Part shown: in pieces, positions 5,934 through 36,300 of the stretch
Layout of the letters: each line of letters opens with the position of its first letter
Numbering within the stretch: position 1 is the first letter of the stretch
Assembly (NCBI GenBank): GCA_963971425.1
Contig: OZ020525.1
Location: 16,188,187 to 16,252,186 of the forward strand
Source of the DNA: Bryoerythrophyllum caledonicum
Taxonomy: Eukaryota > Streptophyta > Bryopsida > Pottiales > Pottiaceae
Direction of reading: 5' to 3'
Length of the DNA stretch: 64,000 nucleotides
Position numbers and translations under genes: made by a program
Notes under the pieces: generated by a model
What the model saw: the letters and a program-made list of their open reading frames with translations, nothing else
Told to the model about the DNA's origin: nothing
The model's database searches: none

Positions 5934-6524
5934 TAGTCCCCTCCACAAAGTAAGGCAACCTCCTATGGGTCAGCTCACATGTGTTACATAGTTGATTTGA
6001 TTGAACATCCAAATTAGGAAGTTGATTCAGCCAAGATAAATTGCAAATATATAATTATAGTATTTGAGAATGCATTTATGAGCCGTCAGTGGCTTCTAGA
6101 CTAGTAATTCCATGTGTTACATCAATTTGAGTACCATGTGGTATTGTAGCTTTTTGAAGCAATGCGGATATTTTGGAGAATAGGGAGCTCTATGAGTACC
6201 TAAGTCACTCAATTTTGCTTGCATTGTCATGAAGTTGAGTAGTTGTGATGATCTGTGAGTTGAGAAGGTCACTCTTACCTAGAAGGTTTTGCTACAAAAT
6301 TTGATTTCTTGTGATGTTGTAGTTAATGTTGGTTTAATAGCTCATAGAATTGTTGTCTTTGTCATTTAGCAAGTTCATTTTCACTCTCCCTCACTAGTAC
6401 CATGACAAGTTACTTCTTATCAATAGAAGAGCAGAGTTTTATTGTAGGAATGAACACAGCTGGAGCATCTTTGAGTGAAATTGCAAATGTAGTTGGAAAA
6501 TCAAAAAGGAACATTTCATTAGTC

Positions 6525-6534
6525 CTCAAGAGAT
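6525..6534. repeat. MULE target-site duplication, left
   Basis: CTCAAGAGAT here and at 18972-18981 directly flank the MULE termini. Length (10 bp) fits the 9-11 bp known for Mutator-like elements. Joining the flanks at one copy restores the Tc1 helix-turn-helix frame. Confidence 0.9.
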
Positions 6535-6584
6535 CAGGATTGCTATCTTGTGAGCCGTGAGCGGCGAGCGGCGAGCGGTGAGCA
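6535..6584. repeat. MULE left terminal inverted repeat
   Basis: After CAG(N4)GCTATCTTGTGAGC the repeat continues as tandem GAGCGGC/GTGAGCG-type heptads. The reverse complement of 18922-18971 gives the same layout with scattered differences. Confidence 0.85.
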
Positions 6585-6921
6585 CTGAATTTTATTGTTT
6601 TTTTTTCCACAATTTTTTTACAAAATTTGAAAGCAAGGCCTATGGCCGTAGGTTATATTTAGTCTATCTTGACAGATGTAAAAAATCATGTAAAACTCTA
6701 CAATATTTGGACATATTGAAGTATGAATTGTTGACAACTTGATGGTCCTAGAGCAACAATTTTTCTTCAAAATGAAAGGGGCACTTATGGGTTTGGTATT
6801 TAGGTTAGGATAACAAAACAGGTTTGAATTACTCATTGGTCGTATTTGTATTTATTTCATTGAGAATAAAACTCTCCCAATAATTGAAAAATTAAAAGGA
6901 TTAATGGAAGGCCATACCCTT

Positions 6922-7053
6922 ACAATACATAGATGATACCCATATAATACCAAGGCGATATCCATATAATACCTAGGTGATATCCATATCATACCTAGGT
7001 GATATCCATATCATACCTAGGTGATATCCATATCATATCTAGGTGATATCTGT
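6922..7053. repeat. Six 22-bp subterminal direct repeats
   Basis: Six head-to-tail units of exactly 22 bp begin at 6922, 6944, 6966, 6988, 7010 and 7032, with a unit close to ATACCTAGGTGATATCCAT plus 3 bases. Units 3-5 are almost identical. Each contains CCTAGG and GATATC palindromes. Such arrays near transposon ends often bind transposase, but that role is inferred here. Confidence 0.85.
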
Positions 7054-7423
7054 GGTGTGGGAACCACCTGTAATTGAGAATTTGACATACTTCAATAAAA
7101 AGTGGTTGATACCAACGATTGCGTATGGTACGAAGCACGGAAACACGTTCATGTTGTTTAGCGTACTATAAAAGACGTGGTAAATTCTCTACATTACTAC
7201 AATTTCTTATGAATTTTATAAAGTACTCAGTTTTGTCTACATGTAATACACAACAATACCTTGGTTTATGGATGGATTGAATAATGGAATAGAGTTGTTT
7301 GATAATGTGTTAAATCATTCCATGTGTTTCAATTAATATAAGATGGGACATCGACAATTTCAAAGATAATATAAAACAAAAGTAGGCCCCATATAAAATT
7401 AAAAAACAATCCAAATAGAGGAA
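7054..7423. other. MULE left internal spacer
   Basis: AT-rich and without an open frame of interest. It contains the presumed 3' end of the accessory gene. Confidence 0.5.
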
Positions 7424-10400
7424 TCACAAATCCTCCGCTGAAAAGTCATCAAAGTCATCCTCGTCCAAACAAGGGGCACTGCTTTCCGACCCACTACCAT
7501 CAGCCTCATCGTCTACGAATTGCCTTGCGATGGACCTATGACGGGGTGCTCGAGGAACACCTGGAGGGGATGATCGTGCTGCCATCGCATTTGCAACACC
7601 ACCATCCCAAGGAGCCAAATCATATGTCCGTGGCGGACTATTAACCAGCTTTGACAACCTTAACAACATCCCCTCCCGCGTTGTTGATGGTGAAGCCATC
7701 AACGACCTCGACCAAGTGCAAAAATCAAAGCAATTGTGTTGTTAAAGTCAGAAATAAAATTACAAACTCTCTAAATCACATGGATGCAAAATTCACCAAA
7801 GAAGTAGAGAACTTACTTACAAGTTCTCTTACGAGCCGTCTTCACCTCTGGCTCATCGTCATCGAGCTCCAAGGGGCGCTTACGAGACTCCTCCTCCACC
7901 GCTGGTGCCATTGCTGACTCCACCTCCACCGATCTCGGAATCAAGGGTTGGAGGACCCCCTTAACCAAATCCAGGTCAGACTCCAATGCCAAGATGTGGC
8001 GCTTTAGAGCCTTGCAAGCCTTGATTGATGCCCCTGTACAAGATAAACAAAATAATTAGTACTAGAGTTGTAATACAAAGAAGGATAATATAATTTGACG
8101 TAGTAAGAATACTTACCAGTAGATGCTGTCAAATCAAAAACTACGTCGTCCTCCTAGGTGCAAAGGTCAATCAAAGCCTCCATGAGGTTCGTAGACTTCT
8201 CCCGCGCTCCCCGCCATGGCTCCATGGTGGTCCCTCTCATCGTCAGCGTGTCCTGTGTAATAAGATTGGTCAAGTGACCATCCGAGGACAGCTGAATCCC
8301 TTCGCGAATCAGCTCCACCTTATCATAGAAAGAAAAAGGGGCTGCTGACTCAGACTTCCTCACAGAGCACTTCACCATGAAGCACTTGTGAGTGCGCCCG
8401 GGTTGCCCATCGCGCGAGAGTGGCAAGCCATTAATGGCAAACCACTTTGTCTCCTCGACGAACTCTGCCCAGTCTGCCCAACCAAGAAGTTCATTGGAAA
8501 TGAACTTCGAGTCTGGATAAAACACGATGAGTGGCGCTCCGTCACGAAGCAGCTCTCCAACCATCTCAAAACAACGGTGAATGAAAGGAGATTCCATCTT
8601 GCCTCTCTCGTTCAGCTGAGTTGGATGCTCGTTCCAACTGGGCACTTTAGTGCCACAATGAATCCCTGGGACTGGCAACCCCTCCGGCACGTCTATGATC
8701 ACCATGTCCACCAAACCAAGATCACAAGGATCTCCACGCAAGGTTCGGAGCCTAGAGCCAGCATGTGCCTTCGCAAATTGGCGCAACTCGGTCCAAACTG
8801 GGGGGTAGTCAGCATCTTCGGAGATATCGTCAAAGAGAGGCATGATGGAGAAGGCACTCTCACACATCACCAACACTCCAACAGAAGAATCAATCTGCTC
8901 GATCACTGGGATTGTGTACACAGTCTGCGAAGGCTTCGTAATGAATGCTGAGGGCCGGCTGCTGGCTGATGGCGAAATTCCGTGCAACGGTGCAACCGCA
9001 GCAGGAATGGCAATCGATGCACCCACCCCAAATTGAGCAATGAGCTTCTCGGGTCCCTCCCTCAACACCAACGCGGCCAACTCTTTGTTCCTCTCCTTGA
9101 CTTCCTTCTTCAGTGTCTTGGCAGTCTCCTTCTCCACCCTGAGGGCTTCTTTCTCCGCCGCCTTAGCTGCCACCTTCGCTGCCTTTGTAGCTGCTGCCTC
9201 TCTCTCTTTTGCAGTCAACTCTACATCCACTAGCGCAACCATTGAGGGGACCGATGGAGGAAGCATCCCGTCATCACCACCTGAGACGGGTAAGGAGTCA
9301 CAGCGAGACCTTAGCTGCATCTCCTCGCCCGGGGTAGGATCAGAATCCTTCAGCTCCAAGAACCAAGGGCACTGCTCCAAGTGGTGACGAGAGAAGCGTC
9401 GCAACTGCACCTCCGTGAAGATGCACTGGACATCAGTGGGATCCGTCCACATATTCAAGCGAATCGGAAGCTGTTCAGGCTGCATGGCTCCCTTGGCAAG
9501 AAGCTCTCTCCAAAAGTAGCGAAGCACAGCCCTCTTCATCGATCTCTCACACTCGGGCTGCGTTAGAAACTCCTCGGTCTTCGTGAACCCAATCTTCTTC
9601 CCCACATGGGCAGAAAACGCTTTGTCCCACAGCCTGATGCACCACGATTCGATCCATGCTCCAATCCCTTTCACGGGATTGGGAAGCCCTTCCGTCTGGA
9701 TGACAAGATTGTCCTCCTGGACAATCTCCGCAAATTTCTTCTCACATTCGTCTTCCAGCTGAAACCAACCAAACAACAAGTTAGACATAGAAAATATTAG
9801 CAATGAAAATCTACATTAACTAAAATGCCATGATATGGAAAACTTACCCCAGCCCAGAAGGCAGCTCTATCGATCCACCCTCGAAGACTTGTGTCTGAAG
9901 CTGGAGATTTTGGGAAGTGATACTCCTCCCTGCTCAACTTGCTCATGTTCCACCACTTACACCAGCGTGCCTTGAACTTTGATGGCACCTTCATGGTACA
10001 AAACAGTTGTAACTTCTCCGATGTCATCTCCGGCTTGAACTGGTAAATGTCAAAATGACGCAACACCTAAACAAAAGACACACAAAATTTGTGTCAATTT
10101 GGTATACATTCAAACTAATTTGGAAATAAAAAATTTGAGAAACAATGAATAGGACTGTGGACAGTAAGAAAACTTAAAAGATCAAACCTCTTTGAAGAAG
10201 TCTTCGCCATTAACCGGATTGGCAACTGCCAATAGTCGATTGAAACTGGTTTGACACGAGACCTTCTTCTTCTGCACCGCGTCTGTGCACTTACTCACCA
10301 ACTCAGTAGAACTCCCTTCGCGGTCCTCACCATTGCCAGTAACGAGAGTGTCCCTATACTGTCGAATGCATTCCTCCTGAACGGCAATTAAATCACGCTG

Positions 10401-13400
10401 CAATTACCAACTCATGAAGTATTAGATTTAAAGTATGAAAGTACAAGAAACTACATGGAGCAATAGGCATGAATCAAGAGCATGAGTTAGTTGTTGAACC
10501 TCGAACATGAGCCGCAGAAATGCATCGTGCGTCATGTGATACCATTTTTTCTTCGTTGCCTTCCCCCATTCTGCAAGGCTGGCCTCGTAGTCAGACTCGC
10601 TTATCAGACCTTTGAGCTGCTCAAAGTCCAATAATCCAAAATGCTGGATCCTCTTCAACTCATGGGTAAGCTGCTGACCGATATGATCTGTCTCCTTTTG
10701 CCTGAAGGACATGATATAGAATTCAGGTGAAATAGAAGCATGTATTTAATAATGAAATTAAATTAGAGATGGAATTAAGGAAAAGTGCTTACTTGTTCCA
10801 ATCGGTCATCGCATTAAGGAGAATGTGTCTGTTCTCCACAGTCGGCTCAATGACAACCGCCCTCACCGGCACATGGAACTCGGAATGAGTGGCATGAAGA
10901 CTGGATATCACCTCCATCCATGCAGTGTGGCGGTGATTCCCATCCCAGACAAAAAAGAACTTGTTGCGAAATGGCGCATACTCCGGTTGACTCGCGAGAA
11001 GAGCCTCAAACTTCCGTTCCTCCTCTTGCCACAATTCGGACCACAAAGCTCGAACATCTGGTGACACATCCTTCTCCACCAACGAGAAGCTCTTCACTGC
11101 GACGTAAAAGCAAGCGGAGCCAGGCCGATATCCCTTTACAAACTCCCCCTTAAGCTTTTCGACATCGCTCCGTAGCGGGACTCTCACATCGGGCATTGGG
11201 AGCATGCGGCAGAGTGGGATGTGGAGTTCTTGAGCGTATGCACAAGTGGACTTCTGCAATACGTCGTAAGAAGTCCCACGCAGGGACCTCCGTAATGCCA
11301 GCTCGGTCGTCTTCAACCCTGGATCTTCCCCAAATTCTAAAACTTTAAGAGCCATATTGTTTCCATCACCCCGTGATGAGGAGCCCATATGCACGTCTCT
11401 AGTCTGCATTGAGTAAACAAACTATCAGAAACTCTTCCTCTCAAAAATATAAACATCCGGGTCATAATCAATGGAGCTATCAAAACACAAGAATTCAAAA
11501 CATGCATAACACCACGCATTCAAAGAATATGAAATATGCATGAAAAGCCCAAGAATTAGTGAGGATGAAGTTATGAACTAGGTGCTTCTTAGAAGAGCTA
11601 AGTTACAAGAAAGAAAATTGCATTTGCAACCAAATTTATACAAGGAATGGGTATTTCATTGTTTTAAAAAATTTCAGTGACCTTTAGAAACCACCTTCGG
11701 ATCCGAAGGTGGTTTTCAAGGAGCACTGAAATTTTTGAAAACATGGCAATCCTCGGCAGCCCACATTCGAGCTCCACGGAGTTCTATGTTTTCAAAAATT
11801 TCAGCAACCTTAGAAACCACCTTCGGATCCGAAGGTGGTTTTCAAGGAGCACAAATTTTTTTGAAAACATGGCAGTCCACGGCAGCCCACATTCGAGCTC
11901 CACGGAGTTCCATGTTTTCAAAAATTTCAGCGACCTTGGAAACCACCTTCGGATCCGAAGGTGGTTTTCAAGGAGCACAAAAATTTTGGAAAACATGGCA
12001 ATCCACGGCAGCCCACATTCGAGCTCCACGGAGTTCCATGTTTTCAAAAATTTCAGCAACCTTAGAAACCACCTTCGGATCCGAAGGTGGTTTTCAAGGA
12101 GCACTGAAATTTTGGAAAACATGGCAATCTATGGCAGCCCACATTCGAGCTCCACGGAGTTCTATGTTTTCAAAAATTTCAGCAACCTTAGAAACCACCT
12201 TCGGATCCGAAGGTGGTTTTCAAGGAGCACTGAAATTTTTGAAAACATGGAAATCCACGACAGCCCACATTCGAGCTCCACGGAGTTCCATGTTTTCAAA
12301 AATTTCAGCGACCTGTAGGAACCACCTTCGGATCCGAAGGTGGTTTTCAAGGGTCATAGAATTTTTTGAAAACATGGAAATCCACGGCTGTGTACATTCG
12401 AGCTCCGCGGATTTCCATGTTTGTGAAAAATTTGGTGACCAATGAAAACCACCTTCGGATCCGAAGGTGGTTTTCATGGGTCACCAAATTTTTCTCAAAC
12501 ATGGAAATCCACGGCTGTGTACATTCGAGCTCCGCGGATTTCCATGTTTGTAAAAAATTTAGTGACCAATGATAACCACCTTCGGATCCGAAGGTGGTTT
12601 TCAAGGGTCACAGAAATTTTTGAAAACATGGAAATCTGCGGCTGTCTACATTCGAGCTCCGCGAAATAAAAATCAAAAGAAGTGTTCACAGGAAAGTGGA
12701 GTATGACATACATGATTGTCGTCACCCTCTCCGCTAGTCGCCATCCCAACTCTGGAGTCTCCTCGAATTGACCTCGTCTCCACGACCTACATGATTCNNN
12801 NNNNNNNNNNNNNNNNNNNNNNNNNNNNNNNNNNNNNNNNNNNNNNNNNNNNNNNNNNNNNNNNNNNNNNNNNNNNNNNNNNNNNNNNNNNNNNNNNNNN
12901 NNNNNNNNNNNNNNNNNNNNNNNNNNNNNNNNNNNNNNNNNNNNNNNNNNNNNNNNNNNNNNNNNNNNNNNNNNNNNNNNNNNNNNNNNNNNNNNNNCGG
13001 GCCATCGGCCCGGCGTTTAGGGCGGCGGCCAGGCGGTCGTTGGGGGCGAGCGCACCTAGTGGGCGTCAACCAGAGGAGTAGCCAAGTGACCACGCGCCAA
13101 CCGAGCGACGACCGGACCCCGATCGCAGGTAAATTTGGCCACCGCCTATTTACCTGTGCTTGCCCGAATTATGTACAAATTATTGATTTATGTTGAAATG
13201 AATTCTACATTATAGAAAAGAATTTGTTTAACATCTTCAAAGCTAAGAAAATCTTCATATGAAAGATCAAAATGAATGTTAATGGAAGGTTTAGCATAAG
13301 ATTGTTGCTCCCCATATTTCTTAGTTCTAACTTATAGCCGTACTACTTTCAAATCATAAATCTAAATATAATAATTAAAATACCTACACCATGCTCTTAG

Positions 13401-14105
13401 CAGTGCAACTTGTAAACATATTCATTTATTTTGAAAATAATTGTATAAAAAAGTACCTGAATCGAACGAACTTGCCCCGACTCCTGCAATACCATCGTGA
13501 TGTTGTCCGCGCTTCCATGACGACACTGACCTGTAGACAGCATTGTCCTTGAGGAGGAACCATTTCTAATCCTTGAAGACCGTAACCGATTCTCAACGTT
13601 GACGGGAGCTTCAACCGTGCCCCCGCTTTGAACTTCAAAGTCTTCAACTTCATCATTATCATCCCTATATCCTCGATGCGAGCTCTCCGATGCCATTGAT
13701 CTCTCTGTTCCGCTCATCAGATTTGTTTGCAAAGAGTCTATTTCTTCTTGATTCTCAAGAGAGTGCACAAAACTAGGTGTCACCTACAAAACATTTAAAG
13801 CAGCAAAACCAAATATCAAAAGATGATTGACACAAACCCTACGCTTTCCACACTATATAAGTAGATCACAACTAGTCAATCAAATAGAGACATACCTGAA
13901 CCCTTGATGATACTCCAGGGTCTCCTTCGTGGATACTATTCAACTCTCTGAATCGCTCAGCCCAATCAGGTTTGTCTACTTCTCTATTTTGAGATTCCAA
14001 TAAGGCCTTCTGTACTCTACGTTTTTTCAGTGCAGCGGTTTGCTTGGAATTTGAATAATGTGTTGTTCGTCTCCGCCCTCTAACGTTCCTAGTCATCCTC
14101 AGCAC
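7424..14105 (-). CDS. MULE accessory gene: ParB-like motif plus methyltransferase-like segment (in-frame TAG)
   Basis: I join ten exons on the minus strand: 14105-13896, 13783-13457, 12786-12712, 11403-10793, 10701-10455, 10397-10188, 10066-9848, 9758-8117, 8033-7817 and 7706-7424. All junctions are GT-AG and phases agree (4041 nt, ~1346 residues). Around residue 357, WDGNHRHTAW followed by a hydrophobic strand resembles the ParB/sulfiredoxin nuclease-fold motif. Around 814-865 there is an Ala/Lys/Glu-rich coiled-coil stretch. Around 984-1095, DMVIIDVPEG, then GELLRDGAPLIVFYP and a later tryptophan-rich block, resemble the strand-4 region of a DNA methyltransferase, but the usual DPPY is not kept. 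The C-terminus is acidic. An in-frame TAG at 8154-8156 (codon ~1168) breaks an otherwise open exon. The N gap lies in intron 2 and might hide an exon. The exon 5 donor is the least certain. Function is unknown. Confidence 0.62.
11658..12665. repeat. Array of alternating inverted 63-bp monomers (palindrome chain)
   Basis: Eight 26-bp perfect palindromes centred on GGATCC start at 11689, 11815, 11941, 12067, 12193, 12320, 12447 and 12574, so the period is 126 and later 127 bp. Between them lies a second symmetry axis near GAGCTC, with arms such as TGAAATTTTTGAAAACATGG and its complement. The array is therefore about 16 half-units in alternating orientation. Around 12425-12500 the symmetry is almost complete over more than 70 bp. 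It lies inside the 1.3-kb intron 12711-11404 of the accessory gene. Because 126 is a multiple of three, it produces repetitive open frames on both strands that I do not consider genes. Confidence 0.92.
12798..12997. other. Assembly gap (200 N)
   Basis: Exactly 200 undetermined bases, probably a placeholder of unknown true size. It falls in an intron of the accessory gene and next to the palindromic array, which may explain failed assembly. The 130 bases after it are GC-rich and unlike their surroundings. Confidence 0.98.
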
Positions 14106-14673
14106 AAAATCTCAAACTATCGAGTCCACTCTACAAAAACATCCCCACCATGTTAACACAACCCTAAATTTATTGACGCTTCTCCTTCGACAGATTGTCT
14201 GGTTTTATGAATCCTTATCGCAGCCTTCACATGTGCGAGCGCAAGTGCTTTGGCTATATTAAACGATGTTGTCAGCCTTTATTTTGAACTCAAACTACAT
14301 CCCACATGGCGTGCCCTTTCTATTTTATGGATCAGCCGTCGTATAAAATTATACTTCACTTTTACCAAAACAATTTTAGAATAGCGCCGCAATACTCCCT
14401 ACACCTTTAAGAGGCATACGCAAAGTTGTTCTATATTTAATTTCATTGCTTTGCTAATCTAAGTTTCTTGTCCTTAGCCTTTTGTCATATTCATTCATGA
14501 CGCTTTTGAAAGACTGCATGACAATAGCCATTTCCATGAATACATGTTTCCACCGTAATCACACTTTATGAACTTCTTCACTTCAAAGAGGACGCTAAGA
14601 AAGCCTCTTAGTGTTTGTGCATTCCTGAGTCATCGTCCATAGCTGAGGAATCAATCATTGAGAGTCGGAGTCT
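14106..14673. promoter_or_regulatory. Divergent intergenic region of the MULE
   Basis: The 568 bp between the start of the accessory gene (minus) and the transposase gene (plus) must hold both promoters. I see AT-rich stretches but no element I can name with confidence. Confidence 0.4.
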
Positions 14674-17600
14674 ATGGCTTCACTAACTTCTCATCAAGGG
14701 GGCGTTCCGTTTATTATGTCCGTTTCTCAAGATGGCAGTGTCATTGTCCGCGAGTCATTGCTATGTCTTCGATTTGGATATAGGATTGGAACAGTTGAAA
14801 TTGAAGAAGAGGTGTTTGATAGTAATCTCAATCTCGTCCAGTCCATTTACCAAGTGAAGGACCATGATGCCGAAGGATTCGTGTGGAATTTATGTCGTGG
14901 TTCATTCAGAGTATACGGAGTCTCAGATGCTCAAATGTCCGGTCACGCATCCACAGCCATTATGACTCCTCCGGTCGAATCCGGTGATACTTTAGTTGGG
15001 CCTGGTTCGGGCACAATGTCCAACCCAAGCGTCCACATTCTGAGCGATACTGAGGATGACGATGTCTCTGGCTTGAACTTAGGTCAGTCAAGCAACCCGT
15101 TCCATTCCCAAAGATCAACTCCTCTCGATGTGTCTACTCTACTTCCTTCCATATCCGAAATGTCTCCATCTGTATCCTTAGGTAAGCCTCCTGTCCATCC
15201 TACGTCTAGAAACGTACGAAGTATCCTTCTGCATGTCCGTACAACTAGTCTTAGAAAGGGGTCCAGGTCTGAATTATCACGTCTTGATTTAGATAGCTTG
15301 GATTTACAGCGAGTGAAGTATCTGCCTCCAAAATATAATGGAGACGTGATATTTGAATTGCCACCTCTTCCAGAGGGTATTCCTCTGCAATTCGGAGGAG
15401 GCCTCGATGGAATGAGTAAACAGTACGACGGTCACACATGGTGTAGGACTATGACGACAAATATCAAGAACGATTTCGGCCTCACGTATCGGAAGTCAAC
15501 ATGTACCGGACATCTTCAATGCCCCAATTTTCATTGTGGTTACAAGTGCAGGAATGATGGTCGCACGAATCAAACCGAGTGGAGCGGGTTTGCCTTCACC
15601 CCATTTCCATTGAACGGAGCACCATCCGACAAATCAACGTTGGCATGTAAGCTGTGTCAAACCCCTCCAATTTGTCTCGCCTTTTGTGATGCTCGAATTT
15701 ATTACCTTACGTCTAGCAATCCAGAACGCACGCGTGTCGCCATCCATCTTGGGCATCATCATCATCCCATTTCAAAAGACGTTGATCAAACGACAATGGA
15801 CGTCATGCACGATTGCATTGCAAAGGAAGTCTAGCGTACACCAAAGGGTACTAATTCCGCTATCATCATGGCTGCGAGTAAGACGTTCCTCTCCGACTAC
15901 TTGATCCGTCCGGGCTCCGGATCGTCGGGCCTAGCTGGAGCATCTATGGATGCTGTCCTCGATCAATTTGAGACTCTTTCTTCTCCAAACATCAGAAACC
16001 TTGTGTCAACATGCAAGAGGTTCTATAGCGGAGGAAAAGGTGTGATGGACAACATCATGGACCTGAAGGAATCGTCCAAGTTCGAGTTTATTCATGAAAA
16101 CAAGTTTCCGGGTCAATCTAAAGGTAAAGTTTTTGTTTTTAAGATGTCTGTTGATCGTCCAGGTAGTGGTGTTGACCTTGTAAAGCGTATGCAAGCCGGA
16201 GGGGATCTCCAAGATTGTTGGTTGATGTTTGATCATGTAAAGCGAGTGAAGGATTGGACTACCATGGCATGCCATGTCTATGATAGTAAGTATTGTAGAG
16301 TCATGACAATCGCCATGTGCGACATGGAATCGGAGGACGCTGAAGCCCAGCAACTGTTTTGGGAGAATTTGAATGGCACAATGAAGAACCACGGGCTAGA
16401 GGAGACAAATTTCAAAGGCTTTATGGCAGATAGTGCTGGAGCGAATTGGCACGCCGTCCGGCGAGTTTATGGCTCCGGCGACAAGGAGAAGCCTATGGAT
16501 AACAAAGAACGGACTTGCTTATTTCATTGGACCAAATGTCTTCAGCGAGCCACCAACAAAAACATTCTACCCAGCTTCAGAGAGCAACACATCGCCCTTT
16601 GCAAAGTCTGGAAGAACGCAAAGACTCAAGAGGAGGCTGAAGCGCAGTACAACATAATTCGTGCATGGTGGGTGTCTTCTGGTGCCACAACCGAAACTGG
16701 TCGTCGTGCCCTAGAGGATTGGATGGCGTTCTGGCACTTTCGATATCGACAATGGGGCGGTGCTATGCAACTTGTAAGCCCTCTTTACCCATTACTTTTA
16801 AAAACTCCCATGTTCAATATAAGTGAGACTTTTGATCATTTTTGTGACATTTATTGTACTTTCTCAGGATCTCACGCTTGACGAGAGAGCCGACATGCCT
16901 TCCTGCAACCTTGCGGAAACAGTCCACAACCGGTGGCTGCAACAATCTGGAAATACAATGACATGTTTGTACGCGGCAACCGTGGACGACCTCATTCGTG
17001 CTTTCATGCAGATCACTATATATCGGACATGGTTGAAGGGTGGCACGTCTGGTAAAGGCCCGGACAAAGGTACGCTTCGTTTGCGGTCTGCGCAACGTTC
17101 AGGTGATCCTAAACTCATTGCTGAGGCTGTTAGGAACTTTCATGGGGCTGAGGATCTACTAACCAGGACGGACGGCTTAGAAGGAGCAGAAATTTTTGGG
17201 TCCACCAAGCGCAAGCTTGACATGCCACCTGGGTCTGCCCATGATTCCCACAGATCTGATACGGTAAATTACTCTATCCCCCGTGATGGCCGAAGGGTGG
17301 CTCGAGCGCGTATTGAAGAAGCCTTCACCAGACAAGACTTTGGAGTCCAACATACAACATCCATTTTGGAATCGGATTGTGATCCATCGAAGTGGCACAT
17401 TGCCCGCCTCTCAAAAAAGTCTGCTCGAAAATGCCAAGCCTTGCAAGCTCACACTGGTGAGCAGTGCAATACTAAGGTTGGGCGTGGCAGTCATGGGACT
17501 CCAGCCCCCACATATGCTGGTATGAAGAAAGATTACAGATCACCATGGAATGTCTCAGCTGAATTCTGGTTTTGTCCCGATGACATTAATCGTTGTGTGA

Positions 17601-18247
17601 AGGGGTCGAAAAAACCATTTGTGGTTGATTGGCCAGCAATTCCAATGACTTGGCCTGTGAAGCTTGGCACTAATTTAACAGTGCAGGAGGTACAAGCGTT
17701 GGAAGAAGCAGGTTTCCAGTTGCAGCAGCGTGGAGATCTTTCACCACGAAGACAATTCCAAGTGTCTATGGACATGCCCCTTCCGCGATCGCACTTTCCT
17801 ATTCCAGTGAACCCGAATTCTTACCACACCTTTCGAAACGGCTATGCGATTCGTAGAACAACAGATGTTCCAACAACTGAGCAACGCAACAAGTGGTCAA
17901 GCGCCGCTCTTATGAATAATTGTTACGTCTCTAACCTCTATGCCATACCGTATCCCGGATGGGGATGCGTTATCACTCTTCATTCAGAAAAGGACAAGTC
18001 CTATTGCATCACCTTCACAGACCTTCCGGGGTGTTCATGCCCTGATTTTTTGAAGATGCAATCGGAGGCATTGGGAAAGAAGGGACAATGGAAGTATTGC
18101 AAGCATGTCTATTACATCTTACGTTACCTTTGTAAAATGGATTACAAAGAGGACTTATTCATACATGCTCCAAGCTACAGCTTCAACGAAGTCATGCGGA
18201 TTCTAGAGCTTGCAAACATTGCCGAACAAGAGCGAGAAATGAAATGA
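14674..18247 (+). pseudogene. MULE-type transposase with SWIM zinc finger (one in-frame TAG)
   Basis: Exon 1 is 14674-16773 and exon 2 is 16868-18247, with a 94-bp intron bounded by GTAAGC and TTTCTCAG. Total ~1159 codons. Residues ~245-375 form a Cys/His-rich region ending in LGHHHHP, like the FLYWCH/WRKY-GCM1 fingers found near the N-terminus of such transposases. The DDE-like core has Asp ~520 (MFDHVK), Asp ~586 (FMADSAGAN) and a CxxH signature (CLFH, 615-618) shared by MULE, hAT, P and Kolobok enzymes. I could not fix the catalytic Glu. The SWIM finger is CSC at ~1089-1091 and CKH at ~1111-1113. A TAG at 15832-15834 (codon ~387) interrupts the frame, which otherwise continues without shift. 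CAG to TAG is the simplest origin. The enzyme would cut and join element ends in the nucleus. Confidence 0.8.
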
Positions 18248-18479
18248 TGTCGTATTTCTCGAAAAAATCTACAATCTTAGATAGCTCAGACGTAGTTGCA
18301 GATTCGTAGACGTGCACGTGAATTTAGTTCATGTACTTATTGAGTTTGTTATGATTTGTTAATTGGCGTACTTCACATATACTACCATACGCAATGGAGA
18401 GTTTTGTACTAGTTGAATTCAAAGTGGAGACTATGAACCTTTTCTAAAAATCCCTTTGGATTTATGTAAGTGATCCCAT

Positions 18480-18589
18480 TTACTGCCCATGTGATGATCT
18501 TGTCATACGTGGATGATATCCAAGTAATGCCTATGTGATACCCGTTATAAACCTAGGCAATACTCTTTTGATACCTATGTAATACCCTG
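18480..18589. repeat. Degenerate 22-bp subterminal repeats, right side
   Basis: Five 22-bp units starting at 18480, 18502, 18524, 18546 and 18568 follow the left-end pattern (for example TGCCTATGTGATACCCGT, AAACCTAGGCAATACTC). They lie in the same orientation on the plus strand as the left array, not inverted. They are more diverged than the left units. Confidence 0.65.
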
Positions 18590-18921
18590 CAGTATACCTT
18601 GTGTCCAAATTAGTGGATATTTATACATAATAAATTTTGTCATGCCTAAACCAACATTTTAAACCTGATGTACAAGATTTAAATGTGATCATTCTAAATT
18701 TAAAAATAGTAGACGTAGATTGTAACAAAAGCACAAGAAGAGAAGAAGGCCCAATAGTCCAAAAAAATTGTTCCACAAGTGACCACGGTTATAGGGTATT
18801 TACTTAATTTAGCAATTAGAAAAGAAAAGTGCTCCAAAATTCATAGTTTTGCCCAAATTGCCGAAAATTTCACACTTAAAAATAAAAACTGTGATTTTTT
18901 TCCAGTTTTCAGAGTTTTGTA

Positions 18922-18971
18922 CGCTCGCCGCTCGTCGCTCACCGCTCATCGCTCACAAGATAGCGTCGCTG
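18922..18971. repeat. MULE right terminal inverted repeat
   Basis: Reads as GCTCGCCGCTCGTCGCTCAC-type heptads followed by GCTCACAAGATAGC and the terminal CTG. It is the inverse of 6535-6584. Confidence 0.85.
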
Positions 18972-18981
18972 CTCAAGAGAT
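18972..18981. repeat. MULE target-site duplication, right
   Basis: CTCAAGAGAT, identical to 6525-6534 and directly abutting the right terminus. Confidence 0.9.
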
Positions 18982-20939
18982 ATCGAGAGCGAGGTTCAAT
19001 ACAAATAGCAAAAGATCTGGACGTCCGAAAAAGCTGCAAGAGATTGATCGACGAGTTCTCAAATATGAGATTGTCAAGAATTGTAGAATACCTCTTGCTG
19101 AACTTGCCAGTAGCTTGCCCATTTCTGTGAGTATGAATACCATACGAAAAGAAGTGCATAACCTTGGATTTGGCAACCGAATTGCCAAGAAGAAACCTTT
19201 CTTGAGTGAGAGATACAAGAAATTGAGGTTAGCCTTTGCGAAAGAGCATAAACATTGGACGGTGGAACAATGGAAGTTGGTTACTTGGAGTGTTGAGTCG
19301 TCATTTGAGATCGGTGCTTATTCACGTCAAACTCGAGTATGGCGGACTACTTCACAAAAATTTCATTCACAATGTTTAGCACCAACATTCAAGTCTAGAA
19401 GGATGTCAATCATGGTTTGGGGTGCTTTTACTACAACTAGTGAGTGTTTTTTAATTTTAATTCCTTTTATACAACTCATTGCTATGGACTCTGTAGAGAT
19501 TGTATGTGAGCAAGGATTATTGCCCTACTACTACCACCATGCTAACCATTGAGAATTAGTATTTATGTTGGATGGTGCACCAACACATATAGCCAGAGTG
19601 ACAAAAAATTGCATCAAAGATATTGGTTTAAAGATGCTCAATTGGCCTCCAAATTCTCTTGACTTAAACCCTCTAGAAAACATGTGGATGATTTGTAAAG
19701 ATAGGGTCCAGAAGATGAAAAGACCAAAAAACGAAGAGCAAATGTGGAATGCAATGCAAGCAGCTTGGGAGAGCATACCAATGGAGATGTTAGACAACTT
19801 AGTTGCAAGCATGCCAAAACGGATACAAGCTGTTATTGATGCCAGAGGAGGTAGCATACAGTGGTAGTAGTAGTTGTTGATCAATCCAATTTTCAGGTTA
19901 GAAATGATTACAAAAGATTTGTATTTTTTTAGCAAGAAGCTTCTATATGTATAAATCTAAGTATTTATGGAAAAAAATTCTATATTTGATGTGTACATGA
20001 GGTAGCATTAGTCAAGTTTTCTTGTTGGTCTCTTCTTGTGTGTGAGAAACAACAAGCCGTTACCTTACTTTGTGGAGGGGACTGTACCCTATTTTTGAGT
20101 TGTACAAACTAAACTCGACCCAATTGCACTTCTGAGCATCCACCATCCAACTCTTATTTTTCTCCCAAAAATGATGCCTAATTAACATGGCATATGACAC
20201 TTGGCCAACACCATGCTCAAATGGGGGCCACTTCACGGTCACTTGGAAAGACTCCTTATGCAAAAAGTAAGTCAGCCGCAACTGCATGCTTTCTAAAACG
20301 TTGCTGGCAACAAGAATTTTGAAATGAAATTGTTGATAAATTGTCCAATCTTCGTAAGAATCCCTCCTAAAAGCCTTCACCTGCAAATTTGATGATGATG
20401 GTATCCCCTCACCATTCTTCGCCTACATAATCTCCAATTACACACAAAACTTCTCAATATACACATACCACTTTCTAACCAAAATATAAATCACAACCCC
20501 ATGTAGATTAACATATGATTTTACCAAAAAAGACCTTGTCAAAAATGACTTTATCAAAAATACTCTTCGTGTTTTTGCCCAATCTTTAAGCCTTTTGTTC
20601 CATGCCTAGTTTTCTTCATACAAACAATCATACTCTCACTATCATTGGCAATAGCAAGGTCTGCTAACTCCAATGCAGATTTCTATAATATGAACATGAC
20701 GTTGTCTATGCCAATTCCCTTCGCAAAAAGCTCATAATTCAACTTTTCAAGACACTCATCAAACTTAGAATAATGTCTATCATCCGAGAGGATAGATCCT
20801 TGACTCCCAACCGATTCCAAGGCAACACATGCTCTCCAACAACCCTAAATCTAACAAATCATATTCAGTATATTGGGAGATTGGGAGCCTTTGAAAATAA
20901 TACTTGAAGCTTGAGTTGACCTAAACATGCAAATGTTTA

Positions 20940-23653: not shown

Positions 23654-25910
23654 TCATGAATGATCAGGGAAAATCCAGGGTATTAGCCGCTTCCTTTGGT
23701 GTGTCAAATCCAGCTTAGAAGTGCGTGCTTCCTTGTCAAGCTTCGAAGCTGAGGAGTTGGAGCTGGCAACAGTCGTTGCAGGCTGTTTTTTCGATGCATC
23801 GGAGTCAACTTGCAGCTTCAATCCGAGCGGGTTGGCGGTGTCTTTGCGGATCTTGTTCGTGCGGGACGACCCGAGGGCGGAGTGCATGTAGCCGTACCGC
23901 TCCAGCACCTGGTTGTCCGCGAAGTTGAAGGCGCGCTCCATCTGCTTGAAGCACTCGTCGTTCTCCGGCGTGGCGCCCATTGGCTTGCAAGGCTTGCAGC
24001 CCACGAAATGCGTCACGAAGGGCCAGCGCTCGTCGCCGAACCCCGGGTGCTGCTTCGCCATCAGCTCCTCGTAATTGTACACCACGTACTTCCAGTAGCC
24101 GTGTAGCAGAAACTCCCACTCCAGGTGCGTCTTCGCCTTCCACGCCGGGTCGCCGTACAGAATCAGGTACACCAGCGCCGACTGGTCGTCCGCCTCGAAC
24201 GCGGGCCGCTCCACAAGCTTCTCAGTCAGCAATTTGCCTGGTACGCGAGATGCACGCGGAAAATACATTGGTCAGACAGTGGGCAACAATGACAAGAAAT
24301 TTGCCTGCACACACATATCAGGTTAGAATCATCGAGGATGTTAGAAGAGAACGTCCTGGCTCTAAGATACTCTACTCTGAGCTTTGGTAGTTCGGGGACT
24401 CGGCGTCTCTGAACATGAATATGCAGTGGGTTATTTGAACCTCACACTCTAATTCTGGCAGAGTACGAGGATAAGATTGAAACAGCTCCTTGGTATTTGA
24501 TCACTCTGACAAATAAACAAGAGATCTATCTAGTGACACTCTGCGCATTTATGGATGCCGCGTCGTCCAAAACCGAGACTTGATTCACTGCAACAATTTC
24601 CTCGAGAAGCAGTTACAGGACACACACAGTAAAGAACTGAACTACTTTCTGGTAATAACTGTGCAACAGCCCTTGAAGCAAGCAAGAATTCCAAATCAGA
24701 AGACAGCATGCAGAGATCATATCCGAAGGAGTTACTTAGGTCAACAAGTCTGTCCCTGAGAAAGACCAGCGAGTGCCAAACAATATTTCCTAGACAGAGA
24801 ACCAGGAGACCTCTACATCGTGAAAGCTTCGCAACAGATATCCGAAGGACAACGTGCAGAGACCATATCCGAAAGAGTTCGTTAATTCACTGCAAGAATT
24901 AGGTCGAGAAGGAGTCAGAAAACACACAAAGGACGAACGAGCGAATGCCGAACAAACAGAACCAGGCTCAGGTACTGACAAGTCATGAACTAAAACATGC
25001 AGATCTAGAGCTGCGGTTCCTCGAGATGAAGTGCGATGATGCGAGTACCTGCTTCGACGCGGGTGATGCCTTCGGGGCCGAACGGCGCCAAGGCGTCGAG
25101 CAAATCCAGCGACCACTGGCAGTTGCGAAGAAGGAAGCTGCCGGTGTTGAGCCCGATCCAGCGGTGCTGCTCGTACAGCAGGTTGTGGAAGCCGTGCACC
25201 ACCAGGTTGCTGTTGGCGTACTTGTGCATGGGCATGTCGAACGTCATGTCCGTGAAGATGGCGTCGCTGTCCATCCACCACACCCACTCCACGTCCGGGT
25301 GGTTGAGCATCACCTTGTGCAGCAGCGGTAGCTTCGCCCAGAACGAGGTCATCTCCTTGTCCAACGTCGCCATGTTGTAGAAGAGCTCGAGCCCGTGCAG
25401 GCGCGCGTAGTCGATGCGGTTCTTGAGGAACTTGAGATGGTAGAAGTCGCCGAGCGGGTTAAGGCATGGCGCCGGCTGCGAGCCGGAGACCAGGATCGTT
25501 TTGGCGGTGCTGTTGCGCCCCGGGTTGCGCGTGTTCCACTCCTCGCGCTGCGCGTCCCAGTTGGTGATATTGGGCCCCAACGTATACGGATTCTTCTGGT
25601 CCCTGTCCTCATCCTCCACGAACTTGCGAACTCCACTTTCATCCGGTTCGAGCTGCGACAGCACGCGCGCGCGCTGCTGCTCCGATCCGGGCGACGTGGT
25701 CGAGGTAATCGCGGCGAACATGGCACCCAGGCCCATGGTGCCGCGAAGTATGAGCAGCGTGATGAAGCCGCACAGGATGGTAAACTTGGAAGTATTCATC
25801 ACCTTCATCAACTTCCGGCCCTTGGGCGTCGAGAGGAACCGGCTCGGGTGGTACGAGTGCAGCGCCGCCTTCATCTCGTCCGCCTGCATCGTCGGGATCT
25901 GCCGCAACAT
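23654..25910 (-). CDS. GT34 family xyloglucan xylosyltransferase-like protein
   Basis: A Golgi type II membrane glycosyltransferase of the GT34 family, which in plants includes the xylosyltransferases (XXT) that add xylose from UDP-xylose to the glucan backbone of xyloglucan. Exon 1 is 25910-25049 and exon 2 is 24237-23654, joined within a Gly codon (donor GCAG/GTACTC, acceptor TACCAG/GC), giving 481 residues, a normal family length. A short cytosolic tail is followed by a membrane segment (~43-68) and a stem. The catalytic domain has WWMDSDAIF with the DSD metal/nucleotide-sugar motif at 214-216, preceded by KNRIDYARLHG and followed by ADDQSALVYL and HGYWKYVV. No lesion is visible. The distinction between xylosyl- and galactosyltransferases of this family cannot be settled from sequence alone. 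Confidence 0.88.
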
Positions 25911-28289
25911 GGTGCCGCTGCTGTTCTCCTACAACAACTGCTTCAAACTCAACTCTGTTCCGAAAACCAAATTCTATCTGCATTACTATAAAAATTCACG
26001 TCTCAAGCTCATCTCTCGACCTTCCCGCACCCAAACCCTCGACATGCAAACCGACACCGTCTAGATCTGTGACAAAATGTGGGGACCCGCTCGACCTGTC
26101 TAAAATTCATAAGCTGGGCTATGGCGCCGCAAGCTCCTGCTGATGTGTGCATGCGAAGGAGCAGTGGCAGTTAAGTTCTAGTCTGATCTAGATGGATCCG
26201 TGGAATACCGTTTTGTGTGTGCATGGGTCACTGTGTGTGTGGGCTGTGTATCTGGAATGGGAACTGTGTGAATTGACCCCACCCGTCCTAAGTAAGTGAA
26301 TCTGCAGCTGCTGCAGTCGGAGCGATGAATCTAACTCGCAAATGATCTGTTGCTGCAGTTTGTGAATCAAATATCTAAATACTGCTTCAAAGTTAGAATT
26401 ATCAATTTTGTTGGAATAGTTCAAATCAAGTATCTAAATATAGTTAAAACTTGAACATTATGACCTTAATAATCATTACACTGCTAGCTCGTTTTTGGAA
26501 AATATCTATAGTATTTATAATAAGTAGGGATTTCCCAACACATGTAATCACTAGAAAGCAAAGTTTCAACTTACTTCACTATTGTCCTCTACAATTTTTA
26601 GTAGTGATGATGCAACATGATGCATATTAGTAGTTGTAGAGAAACGATGCATTCAGTTTTCAGAGGTGTGTGTTGCTACTTAGGTTGCAGAGAAACGATA
26701 AATTTGGCTTTTTAGATTGTGGAGTTTGAGTTTATACCAGGTGAAGCGAAGATTCTTGAGGTTGACTCAAAATCAGAGCCAAGGGAAAAGGGCCATGACT
26801 GGGGCTGCACCATGCGCCATGCTTCAAGCTTAAGCACAGCTTTCTCTGAATCCACTTTCCTAGTATGTACTCTACACTCCATCAATGTTCTGCTTAATTT
26901 TTCAAAATCACTCGTAAACATCATAAATGTTTTCTGTAACCTAGTAGTATCTTGAAACAATGCTTTTACCTTTTCAACAATGAAACTCAATATGTAATTG
27001 AGATAAAAAAAAAAACAACAGAGTTCCGTGACGAAAGAGATAGAGTGAAGCTTGCGTGAAATTTTCTCCACTTACACTACACTAAAATTTATGTTTAGTG
27101 TAGTGGTACGAATAGTCTACTTACCCTAGTACACTATTTGTAAAAAAGTTGACAATTGGTGTTAGTTACCAATGTCATTAACCCCTATGAGCTTAAGTGT
27201 ACTTGAGGCGTACGTTTTGGATTTTGGGCATGTACCTTTGAGTGGAAAAAATACTCCGATTCTCATGTAAATTTTACACTGCATTGTCCTTGATGAAATC
27301 TATGTGGGGAATCTTTCAAATATGATTTTGGACTTTTGGTTCAAAAGTTATTAACCTTCAAAAGTTCAAATGGGAAGTCTGGACTATAGGGGCAACCATG
27401 TCAATCAATGCAATTTGAAGAGAAAAATGGGGCAGAATTTTGGAACAAAAAAGGCGACGAAAGGAGTCCAGACTTCTATGCACTAAGTCCAAGTAGAAAA
27501 AGCTTTGAAAATTATCGAAAGAGTTGTTAAAATAATTTAAAAAAACAACAAACAACCAGCCGTCACATGGCTTGCCAACGTCCCATGCTAGAAGCGAGTC
27601 CGCCAAAAAAAATTTTTTTTTTTTTTTTTTTTTCCGTCTAGCTCCGAGGGTGGTCAACAACGGGACAAACAGGCCATCCAATTTCAAGCACTGCCCTTTC
27701 CCATAATGCTATATTAATTCCATGTATTCATGAAAATTATGGATTTTACTAATTTCAGTCGTTTCTTTTTCTAAAATTAGTAAAAAAAAAATTTGAAAGT
27801 TTCCACCATTGGGATTCTCAAATGCAACAACTTTTATGAAACAAACAATTTCATATCACTTATGTAGTAATTGTCATCATTTTGTACCCCCTTTCACTAA
27901 AGTGTATATTTCTACATCTATTACCCCTCGAATTGACCTCAAATTTTGCACACAAATAGCTAACAACATATAAGTCATATTGGTAAAAGATTTGATTGCA
28001 TTTCAATGTAAAAACTAGAAGATATACCTAGTCAAAGTAGGTTGACCTTGCAGGGCAAGGAGGGAAAAATACTTTTCTTTGCACTTCAAACGCTATAATC
28101 TTCACATCAGTGTGGTGGATTGCAACCAAATTTGTATTGTAAGTTCATGTACGTGTCTATTTTTAGATTGAATGGTTAAAAGTCTAAAATTAGACTTAAA
28201 TGTTAGATTTCGTTGCCACTTGTTGATGATGGCACTTTTGGTGTGTTTCATGAGGGAAAATGCCTTGGACTTTTAGGGGTGAAGTGATC
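25911..28289. other. GT34 upstream region and AT-rich spacer
   Basis: 25911-26170 presumably includes the GT34 5' UTR and promoter. The rest is gene-free. Notable items are a palindrome of CACTA type at about 27070-27105 (CACTACACTAAAA opposite TTTAGTGTAGTG) and an A8-T27 homopolymer run around 27606-27640. Confidence 0.5.
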
Positions 28290-33887: not shown

Positions 33888-36020
33888 TCACTGTCGTTGA
33901 GCTGGGAAAGGTCCGGGGGCGCCGTTCCATCCCTGCACGCATCGGAGAAGAGGGCGGATGAGCTTGCCCTCGGACATGGCCTCGAACACCTTCTGGATCT
34001 CGGTTCCGGGCGACACGGTCCGCAGCCCAGACAGGAGCTGCGTCCCGAGCTCGCCCCGCACGAATTCATACAATGGATACGTTCTGCAGCTGTGGATCCT
34101 GTTGGCGACGGAAGACAATCCCTTGTTGTCGTACGCTTCCCGGACGATCGGCACCACGATGCGCAGCCGCTCCTGCACCTCAGCTTCGAAGGCGGGGATC
34201 TGGGCGAACACAGAGCTGGAGGCGTCCTTGTTGACTAGCTTGAGCGCGTGGGAGATGAGCGCCGCGCGCAGCTTCTCCATCAAGGGGTAGGATTCGCTGG
34301 CGGCGTCGTCGATGTAGGAGAAGACGGGCTGGCGCTCGACGACGAGCAGGAGGTCCTTCTCGCAGAAGCGCGACGGGAGGAGCGTGCCGTCCTTGCTCAT
34401 GAACAGCGTCTTCTTGGCTGCTTGCGAGACGACCTGCTTCACGGCCGCCTGCATGGTTTCCTCCACATGGCGGAGGTCGATGGCCTGGCAGAGCGCCACC
34501 AGGAACGACGAGCTCATGAGCTTGAGAATCTCCACGGCCTCCTCGGTTTTGCGCGCGGACACGAGCCCCAGGGAGTTCACGTCCTGGTTGTGCTGCTCGG
34601 CGCTCTGGACGTGCGTGGTGACCGGGTTGGCGAGGTAGTTGAGCTCGGAGAGATACGACGCCATCGCGATCTCGGCGCCCTTCATGCCGTAGTCGAGGCT
34701 GGGGTTGGGGCCCCCGGAGAGGTTGGAGGGCAAGCCGTTGTTGTAGTAGTCGTTCACGAGCTCGCTGAACTGCGCAAACATGAGCTTGCCGATGGCCGCC
34801 ACGGCGAGCCGCAGGTTGTCCATGGAGACCCCGATGGATGTCCCTTGGAAGTTGCCGCCGTGGAGCGCAATGCCTCGCGCGGCGTCGATGATGGGGTTGT
34901 CGTTCACGGAGTTGATCTCGCGCTCGATGGCGTGGGTGGCAGCGCGCACCACTTCGACCTGCGGCCCGAGCCACTGCGGGGACGTGCGCAGCGCGTACCG
35001 GTCCTGCTTCGGCTTCTTCAAAGGATCGGTCTCGTTCACCTTGGCGGCGGCCTTCATGAAATCGCTCCCATCCAAGAGCCACTCCATCACGGCCGCGGCC
35101 TCCATCTGCCCGGGGTGATGCTTCAGCTTGTGCGTCAACGGATCAGCGAACTCCGGCTTCCCCTGCATCACCTCGCAGAAGAGCGCGGACAGAACCTCGG
35201 CGAGGAGCGCGAGCAGATTCGCGTCGAAGCAGACGGTGGACGCCAGCGCAGACCCCACCGCGGTGCCGTTCACGAGCGCCAGCCCTTCCTTGGGCTGCAG
35301 CTCGAACGGCTTCTCGACGCCGGCGATGCGCAAGCCCTCCAGGGCGGACACCTCACGTCCGTCCTCCGTGATGGCGACGGAGTTCGGGCGCGCGGTGAGC
35401 AGCCCGGCGATGTACGACAAGGGCACCAAGTCGCCGGACGCCGTCACGGTCCCGCGCAGCGGCAGCTTGGGCGTGACGTGCGCGTTCAGGAGCTTCTCCA
35501 TGGCCGCGAGAATCTCCCACCGGATGCCCGAGTAGCCCTGCATCAGCGTGTTGGTGCGCACCAGCATTGCGGCGCGGGCGGTCTCGGCCGGCAGCGAGTG
35601 GCCCTTCACGAGCACGCCCGCGTTCAGGAAGCGGATGAGCTCGCGCTGGAGCTCCACGCCCTGCTGCGTGCGGCGGTGCGAGGTGGCGCCGAACCCCGTG
35701 GTGACGCCGTAGATGTCCCCGCCGCTCATGATCTTGCTGAGCACCCAGTTGGACGACTCGTCCACCCTCGCCTTCGCATTGGCCGCGTCCAGCACGACCT
35801 GGACCTCCGGCCTGCGCGCTATGGCGGTCACTTGGCCCACGGTCAGGTTCACGCCCTCGATCGCGACCTCGTCGGAGTCGAAGTATGTCGCCACCATGCG
35901 CTTGATCTCGTCCAAATGGTTGCCTTCCATGGCCGCCGCTGTCTTGGCCCAGTTGAGGGGATCCGCGCCGACTGATCCATTGCAGAAAGCCGCCTCATCG
36001 AGCTTCATCTGTGGAGCCAT
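33888..36020 (-). CDS. PAL: Phenylalanine ammonia-lyase, copy B
   Basis: A complete, intronless 710-residue PAL. It releases ammonia from L-Phe to give trans-cinnamate for lignin-like polymers, flavonoids and other phenolics, and acts as a cytosolic homotetramer. The MIO triad Ala-Ser-Gly is at 194-196 (GTVTASGDL), the loop Tyr at ~104, the substrate-selecting Phe-Leu at 131-132, NDNP at 373-376, and the C-terminal helical domain is complete. Length fits the plant family. Residues differing from copy C are few: Gln4 for Ser, Ala68 for Gly, Ser395 for Pro, and Ile for Val near 496 (AIDLRHVEE). A 575-codon open frame on the opposite strand is a by-product of high GC. Confidence 0.97.
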
Positions 36021-36300
36021 AGAGCTCAGTGTGCTGCACGTTGTCCAATTAGAAACCTCTCAGCCTGTGATGTCCCAGAATGCTGAATATTTATTTCTGG
36101 CTGAAGAGTTGATCTTAGAAATCTCTACAGAAACGAACGATTGAAGCACCTCGACTGAGATCGATGAGGAGCTGGAATGTGAGACCAAGGACATATATGA
36201 GAATGAATGATCGAAGCGCCTCGACTGAGATGAGGAGTTGGAGTGTGAAGCCCAGGATTTACATGAGAATGGACTCGGAGAGAAACGACGTGACTTTGAA
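36021..36300 (-). promoter_or_regulatory. PAL copy B promoter with duplicated core unit
   Basis: Same layout as at PAL A. Two copies of the ~65-bp CTCGACTGAGAT unit occur at about 36137-36210 and 36210-36275, each followed by a TATA-like motif on the minus strand (36192-36201 and about 36258-36266). Confidence 0.45.

Follow-up and report, generated by a model that had tools for sequence, protein, structure and literature searches.

The window analysed here, a stretch of 64,000 nucleotides from contig OZ020525.1 of Bryoerythrophyllum caledonicum, contains a DNA transposon that spans positions 6535-18971 (12,437 bp) and carries two divergent genes. One encodes the transposase; the other is very probably an accessory gene that combines a ParB-like motif with a beta-class amino-methyltransferase (MTase) domain. 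That this gene belongs to a cut-and-paste transposon, provisionally of Mutator type, and acts through a product binding the element's own DNA is a reading to which we give an even chance. The original prediction had placed a Mutator-like transposon at 7424-14105. The transposon is real, but the element extends beyond these coordinates on both sides, and of its two genes only the accessory one falls within them.

A recently mobile two-gene transposon

The element is bounded by terminal inverted repeats and flanked by a target-site duplication (Table 1). In the host genome searched (437,360,962 bases in 894 contigs), the core of the second gene gave at least 57 DNA matches, 40 of 574 candidates being scored, and nine copies besides that of the window were 99% identical over nearly the whole query. 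The terminal repeat ends of the window element recur in 8 other copies. Far ends were fetched for 12 copies and located in 8 of them (in L013 by eye from the flank), leaving 4 unlocated. All 8 other copies with both ends located carry perfect target duplications, 7 of 10 bp and one of 9 bp, so that with the window counted the duplication measures 10 bp in 8 of 9 copies and 9 bp in one. The family has moved recently, as the nine other copies at 99% identity indicate, and these copies together with the flanking duplications establish a bona fide, recently mobile family of cut-and-paste DNA transposons.

The window copy is inserted in a plus-strand gene which we take to encode a Tc1-like transposase and whose two parts lie at 6348-6534 and 18982-19862. 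When the flanks were joined with a single 10-mer between them, this restored, by our own reading, its helix-turn-helix region, up to a frameshift; the target gene itself carries a frameshift and an in-frame TGA. Elsewhere in the genome, derivatives about 92% identical that are missing query positions 178-1067 (the greater part of the ParB-like exon, then exon 5 and the beginning of exon 6) have multiplied at C9:20420495-20467393, C12:14595150-14668775 and other places, on C9 at an equal spacing of 22.7 kb. Subterminal 22-bp repeats near both ends of the window element are possibly transposase-binding sites.

The transposase gene lies on the plus strand and faces away from the second gene. Its frame runs in copy L043 without a stop until four codons before the end of the window's frame. 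Relatives of the transposase numbered 315 at E<=0.001 among 1869 candidates, and the transposon type itself is therefore widespread. Target duplications of Mutator-like elements measure about 9 bp, with a range of 8-11 bp, and the 9-10 bp found here agree with this length. The SWIM-like motif (CSCPDF...CKH) and a D..D..E triad (in MFDH, MADS and NLAE) were read by eye, the two D residues being nearly invariant in the transposase alignment. No MULE-named Pfam family was matched among the 25 transposase members and no SWIM match was obtained in Pfam for the transposase; a single member of the 25 matched Transposase_mut, at a below-threshold E of 0.017. The Mutator-like assignment thus fits in duplication length and by-eye motifs, while its profile support stays below threshold, and we assign the carrier to the Mutator-like elements provisionally, from sequence features.

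Table 1 Features of the transposon in window coordinates.
Feature	Position	Strand	Basis or remark
Left target-site duplication CTCAAGAGAT	6525..6534	.	same 10-mer again at 18972-18981
Right target-site duplication CTCAAGAGAT	18972..18981	.	same 10-mer as left
Left terminal inverted repeat, begins CAGGATTGCTATCTTGTGAGC	6535..6584	+	about 50 bp aligned to reverse complement of right end
Right terminal inverted repeat	18922..18971	-	pairs with left end
Subterminal 22-bp repeats	6908..7039	.	repeat search; weaker relatives at 18488-18575 near other end
Transposase exon 1, DDE-like core	14674..16773	+	in-frame TAG 15832-15834 in window copy
Transposase exon 2 (NLAET..., SWIM-like CSCPDF...CKH)	16868..18247	+
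Second gene, exon 1 with start ATG	13896..14096	-	GT-AG borders, seen in other copies
Second gene, exon 2	13457..13783	-	GT-AG borders, seen in other copies
Second gene, exon 3 (probable)	12712..12786	-	AG/GT borders in 14 of 14 copies where located, of 20 fetched
Palindrome array, intron between exons 3 and 4	11653..12663	.	eight 126-127-bp units
Second gene, exon 4: ParB-like domain, WDGNHRHTAW	10793..11403	-	motif, genome matches, selection
Second gene, exon 5	10500..10701	-	GT-AG borders, seen in other copies
Second gene, exon 6	10188..10397	-	GT-AG borders, seen in other copies
Second gene, exon 7	9848..10066	-	GT-AG borders, seen in other copies
Second gene, exon 8: middle region and methyltransferase core	8117..9758	-	relatives, alignment, profile comparison
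Second gene, exon 9: S-adenosylmethionine (SAM)-binding part of methyltransferase (STG|ASI..ALKRHILALESD)	7817..8033	-	borders; PF01555 and PHROG 3008 cross exon 8/9 junction
Second gene, probable last exon, acidic tail	7424..7706	-	frame open below acceptor in 9 of 9 sequences translated

The second gene: methyltransferase and ParB-like domains

As predicted, GT-AG borders join the pieces of the second gene in frame, and these borders recur in other copies. Among the 9 copies at 99% identity, 5 show canonical sequence at all listed internal borders (with exon 3 located in 3 of them), and the remaining 4 have one changed border each. The single open frame of 4041 nt that had been proposed was not reproduced: the ten-exon join measures 3,987 nt, and exon 8 contains an in-frame TAG at 8154-8156. 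Eight aligned relatives are in frame at this codon, and they have Q, V, R or E there. The last exon, down to 7424, is probable only. In its favor, pN (the proportion of nonsynonymous differences) is lower than pS (the synonymous counterpart) in 12 of 15 pairs, with few sites and with all three exceptions involving copy L027; it is weakened by a TAA directly after the exon 9 donor GTAAGT and by the relative P0124, which runs on into sequence related to exon 9 and ends at the corresponding place. With at least 57 DNA matches of its core, at least 150 protein matches of its ParB-like exon and 10 relatives of exon 8, the second gene is far beyond chance.

Both motifs quoted in the original prediction lie on the minus strand where it had placed them, WDGNHRHTAW in exon 4 and DMVIIDVPEG and GAPLIVFYP in exon 8. 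The latter exon also holds a motif-X-like REKSTNLMEALIDLCT and the start of motif I, DLTAST, and has DVPE at the DPPY position. The Pfam family N6_N4_Mtase (PF01555) matched with an E value of 6.9e-5, below the cut-off, across the TAG and the exon 8/9 junction, and PHROG 3008 (DNA methyltransferase) with 3.9e-6. In a collection of 5.8 billion proteins, exon 8 found 10 relatives at 36-74% identity with conserved positions; as predicted proteins these are open by construction. The 932-aa joined protein used as query returned no relatives, probably owing to the length window. PF01555 was matched independently by 5 of the 11 aligned sequences (best E 0.00093).

Structure and profile comparisons agree with this assignment. 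The model of P0124 is poor (predicted local distance difference test, pLDDT, 54.5) and seems to include a translated intron. Searched with Foldseek, it nevertheless gave 50 listed matches at E<=1e-3, all of them amino-methyltransferase entries or complexes, followed by another 683 weaker ones. Among the listed entries were M1.HpyAVI, CcrM, M.BceJIV, MboIIA, TTHA0409 and a type III Mod subunit, as well as MTA1 and AMT1 complexes and METTL3-METTL14. A profile comparison with 53 phage methyltransferases, picked by DPPY-type and DPFAGSGTT motifs among the contigs listed, gave a probability of 95.3 (E 2.4e-8) over the whole domain, against 0.1 in two cross controls, and aligned DVPE with DPPY and DLTASTG with DPFAGSG. 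No relatives were confirmed in viral contigs, and PDB sequence profiles gave no meaningful match. By fold and by the motif order IV, X, I, the C-terminal domain is a beta-class amino-methyltransferase.

Of DVPE, the D and the E are invariant among 11 aligned sequences, and the P is shared by 10. The catalytic (D/N/S)PP(Y/F/W) is absent from all 11, which read DVPE or, in one sequence each, DIPE, DMPE or DVHE. Because DPPY is replaced in this way, we do not class the domain as a normally active beta-class member. The family's retention of the changed motif suggests that catalysis was lost or altered, and the earlier doubt about ordinary catalysis was well placed.

The ParB-like exon is under purifying selection and is maintained as a protein. 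It gave at least 150 scored protein matches in the host genome (of 1843 candidates), all with E < 1e-77. By our own count, 21 of the 150 represent the element's own family and near kin (78-100% identity), 129 lie at 62-71% identity, and about 123 are free of stops. Between families, the ratio of nonsynonymous to synonymous substitution rates (dN/dS) was 0.10-0.26 in 6 of 7 pairs, one pair giving no estimate; deeper pairs, including those with the window, have near-saturated dS. Within the family, transversion-only pN/pS was 0.39-0.55 in the four most diverged copies, pS being close to intron divergence in three of them, and three closer copies were noisier (0.24, 0.89 and 0.56). Counting all changes gave 0.31-0.60 between copies, a result that is weak when taken alone because the introns show a divergence close to that of nonsynonymous sites. 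The case for selection is built on the transversion-only and between-family counts.

Between families at 62-70% identity, DVEKLK.EFV, FFVWDGNHRH.AW, FHVPVRAV and NRHILLN.MTD.N are kept with single exceptions. At the GNHR-type motif, which we take to be a ParB/sulfiredoxin mark, 7 of the 8 sequences aligned have DGNH and the other has DRNH; HR is present in 7 and HG in one. None of the 8 members matched a ParB family in Pfam, and PHROG 1033 ('ParB-like') reached at best an E value of 0.46, in 2 of them. Comparison by hhalign with phage VDGNHR proteins gave probabilities of 24.2 (6 sequences) and 70.9 (20 sequences), and of 0.2 and 0.1, respectively, with the motif masked; since the phage set had itself been picked by the motif, the masked test is weak in both directions. 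A single-sequence AlphaFold model of the exon (pLDDT 32.6) showed no usable fold, and Foldseek returned nothing firm. One phage and two plasmid records found by tblastn (best E 3) were taken as chance. Of the proposed ParB-like domain, the motif and its neighbours are thus conserved, while Pfam, PHROGs, Foldseek and the masked profile yielded nothing firm.

The window copy is decaying, with one in-frame TAG in each of its two genes, as is usual for a silenced family. Among 20 further copies fetched on the second-gene side (21 with the window), exons 4-9 are open to the terminal TAA only in L010, which has a changed acceptor before exon 9. A single stop interrupts the frame in each of L011, L012 and L013; in the copies other than L010-L016 the exon 4-9 join is shifted or only part of the stops is listed. 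An altered genetic code, in which TAG would encode an amino acid, was considered as both genes hold one in-frame TAG and can end in TGA. It was rejected because the transposase site reads CAG in three other copies, and because the exon-8 site holds no TAG in seven other copies with a length-keeping exon 4-9 join (L010-L016) and relatives have several different residues there.

The palindrome array, the role of the protein and the rest of the window

In the explanation we prefer, the product would be a self-directed DNA-binding factor. The ParB-like part would hold DNA or load onto it, and the methyltransferase part would serve mainly as a SAM-binding, sequence-reading module and not as a normal enzyme. 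On the element, its most likely task would be to build a nucleoprotein complex that assists the transposase or protects against silencing, with the palindrome array in the intron as candidate binding site. As a mechanism, this proposal is tentative and stands well below even chances.

Each unit of the array is centred on the 26-bp palindrome AACCACCTTCGGATCCGAAGGTGGTT. Within the window array, none of the 26 core columns varies, against 48 of 100 outside the core (Fisher 6e-7), and four other arrays tested vary at 0-3 of 26 core columns against 46-48 of 100 outside; the p-values are a guide only, because columns within one array are not independent. The 20 other copies have 0-10 units: 8-10 in 8 of the 9 copies at 99% identity, 4 in the ninth and 0-7 in the rest. 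Exact 26-mer sites numbered 210 in the host genome and 0 for a reversed control. Among 50 sites listed, 43 fell in examined copies and 7 in a separate array. The palindromes are possibly the protein's own target.

Several observations weigh against our preferred explanation. The ParB assignment is likely, yet its support does not extend past the motif. One older copy has no array and two others have a single unit left, and only 94 of the 210 sites lie within the 21 copies examined. The separate array, of about 7.5 kb at C2:21382249-21389754, holds 7 exact sites with no adjacent ParB-like match among those listed; its spacings look like multiples of about 127 bp, and it would have either arisen from the element's array by expansion or given rise to it. 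Finally, none of the 21 copies, window included, combines an open exon 4-9 frame with canonical borders throughout.

The array might also have nothing to do with the protein and be a minisatellite of the intron or a source of hairpins, acting as small-RNA trigger or simple repeat; for this we see just short of an even chance. A unit is a large inverted repeat that folds at -64.7 kcal/mol (a value without shuffled control), and since a strong hairpin forms from each unit, a role as RNA or satellite competes fully with that of binding site. The separate array of 7 exact sites at C2:21.38 Mb and a unit number ranging from 0 to 10 among copies fit it as well. A pure hairpin, however, does not obviously predict a nearly invariant central 26 bp where 46-48 of 100 other columns vary.

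Self-marking would require activity: the protein would methylate its own transposon, placing N4-methylcytosine (4mC) or N6-methyladenine (6mA), and thereby block or bypass silencing or time transposition. The domain has a methyltransferase fold with a recognisable SAM-binding region, binding and epigenetic modification of the element's own sequence is what the Ectocarpus authors propose for a similar gene (PMC12477816), and the N4C-methyltransferase of bdelloids is described as putting 4mC on transposons and certain tandem repeats (PMC8885841). For that same enzyme, a change of SPPY to APPA is reported to abolish 4mC addition (PMC8885841), and with DVPE or a near variant in place of the catalytic motif in 11 of 11 aligned sequences we regard active self-marking as unlikely.

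A partition-like system appears improbable, in which the protein would bind the 26-bp palindromes as parS-like sites, spread on or cluster the element, and shield it from silencing or coordinate transposition, DVPE marking a methyltransferase fold turned DNA reader. An array of palindromes beside a ParB-like gene does recall parS-type sites; binding is here something we infer.

Quite improbable, too, is a ParB-like domain that acts as nuclease or nickase, guided by the methyltransferase part, to assist excision, process ends or clear rival DNA. Such cut-and-paste elements presumably do not need an extra nuclease, a nonspecific one would be costly in a plant nucleus, and active-site residues are unverifiable because the fold is unconfirmed. 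Its attraction lies in the HR of the motif, kept in 7 of 8 aligned members, and in the Bacillus cereus ParB-methylase, described as nicking DNA whatever its sequence, and in related ParB domains, for which nuclease or nucleoside triphosphatase activity is reported (PMC5512222). That the gene is a passenger, a fragment picked up and carried along with no function in the manner of Pack-MULEs, is very unlikely: the window copy and nearly all examined copies are broken and derivatives missing most of the ParB-like exon have multiplied, but purifying selection on this exon speaks against it (dN/dS 0.10-0.26 across families, at least 150 scored matches, about 123 of them stop-free by our count), as do the positions kept by relatives of the methyltransferase exon at 36-74% identity, predicted proteins that are open by construction.

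Outside the element, the window contains three similar minus-strand frames of phenylalanine ammonia-lyase type, at 1-2200 (cut by the window start), 33888-36059 and 55585-57741; 164 residues of one frame tested matched aromatic amino-acid lyase with an E value of 1.3e-26, which points to phenylalanine ammonia-lyase and to a land-plant host. Further frames are presumably a second Tc1-like transposase (39626-40189, minus), a Copia-type polyprotein in pieces (43231-47080, plus) and a relative of plant xyloglucan xylosyltransferase (25005-25928, minus).

Comparison with known ParB-methyltransferase systems

The idea of a eukaryotic transposon using a bacterial-type ParB-methyltransferase module was right, but it has already been published for algae (PMC12477816). 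The closest case is Sola1-1_Ec32 of Ectocarpus, described as a 21.5-kb element with a 1104-aa gene opposite the transposase for a ParB-like and N4/N6 DNA methyltransferase protein (PMC12477816). The same paper cites ParB-methyltransferase proteins in green and red algal transposons (Iyer, Abhiman and Aravind 2011; Petroll et al. 2025), which by its description belong to the same class of accessory genes. The concept is therefore not new. As in the algal accessory genes, the gene studied here is carried by a DNA transposon and read from the opposite strand to the transposase, and by description it shares with Sola1-1_Ec32 the two-domain idea and the large size of the carrier. The carrier there is of the Sola1 family, whereas here it is provisionally of Mutator type with 10-bp duplications; the methyltransferase there is predicted to make 4mC or 6mA, whereas here DPPY has become DVPE; and the available text describes no palindrome array there.

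Bacterial and phage ParB-methylases and polyvalent proteins, found in phages and conjugative elements, are described as joining a ParB-type domain to an adenine methylase (PMC5512222). In contrast to these, the present gene is rich in introns, sits in a plant-like genome, and has a long middle region and a changed motif IV. Fungal transposons reported to carry TET/JBP dioxygenase genes (PMC12730594) are likewise DNA transposons with a gene for a DNA-methylation enzyme, there an unrelated one that removes the mark. In Marchantia, MpDN4MT1a/b are described as bacterial-type 4mC methyltransferases of a land plant, active in sperm (PMC8566409, PMC8885841); the likeness is by description, and those are host genes without added N- or C-terminal domains.

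Among the records listed by the literature searches, with subscription papers mostly outside them, we saw no report of a ParB-methyltransferase gene in a land-plant transposon. As far as we have seen, the new features are a carrier of provisional Mutator-like type, a host that is probably a land plant, the kept D-V-P-E, the abundance of the gene and the palindrome array. If the preferred explanation is correct, lineages as distant as brown, green and red algae and a probable land plant keep a bacterial ParB-methyltransferase type of gene alongside different transposases, and such genes would then form a class of transposon helpers or anti-silencing factors that recurs across lineages. Being recent, present in many copies and provided with a defined candidate DNA target, the family described here would be a good test case.

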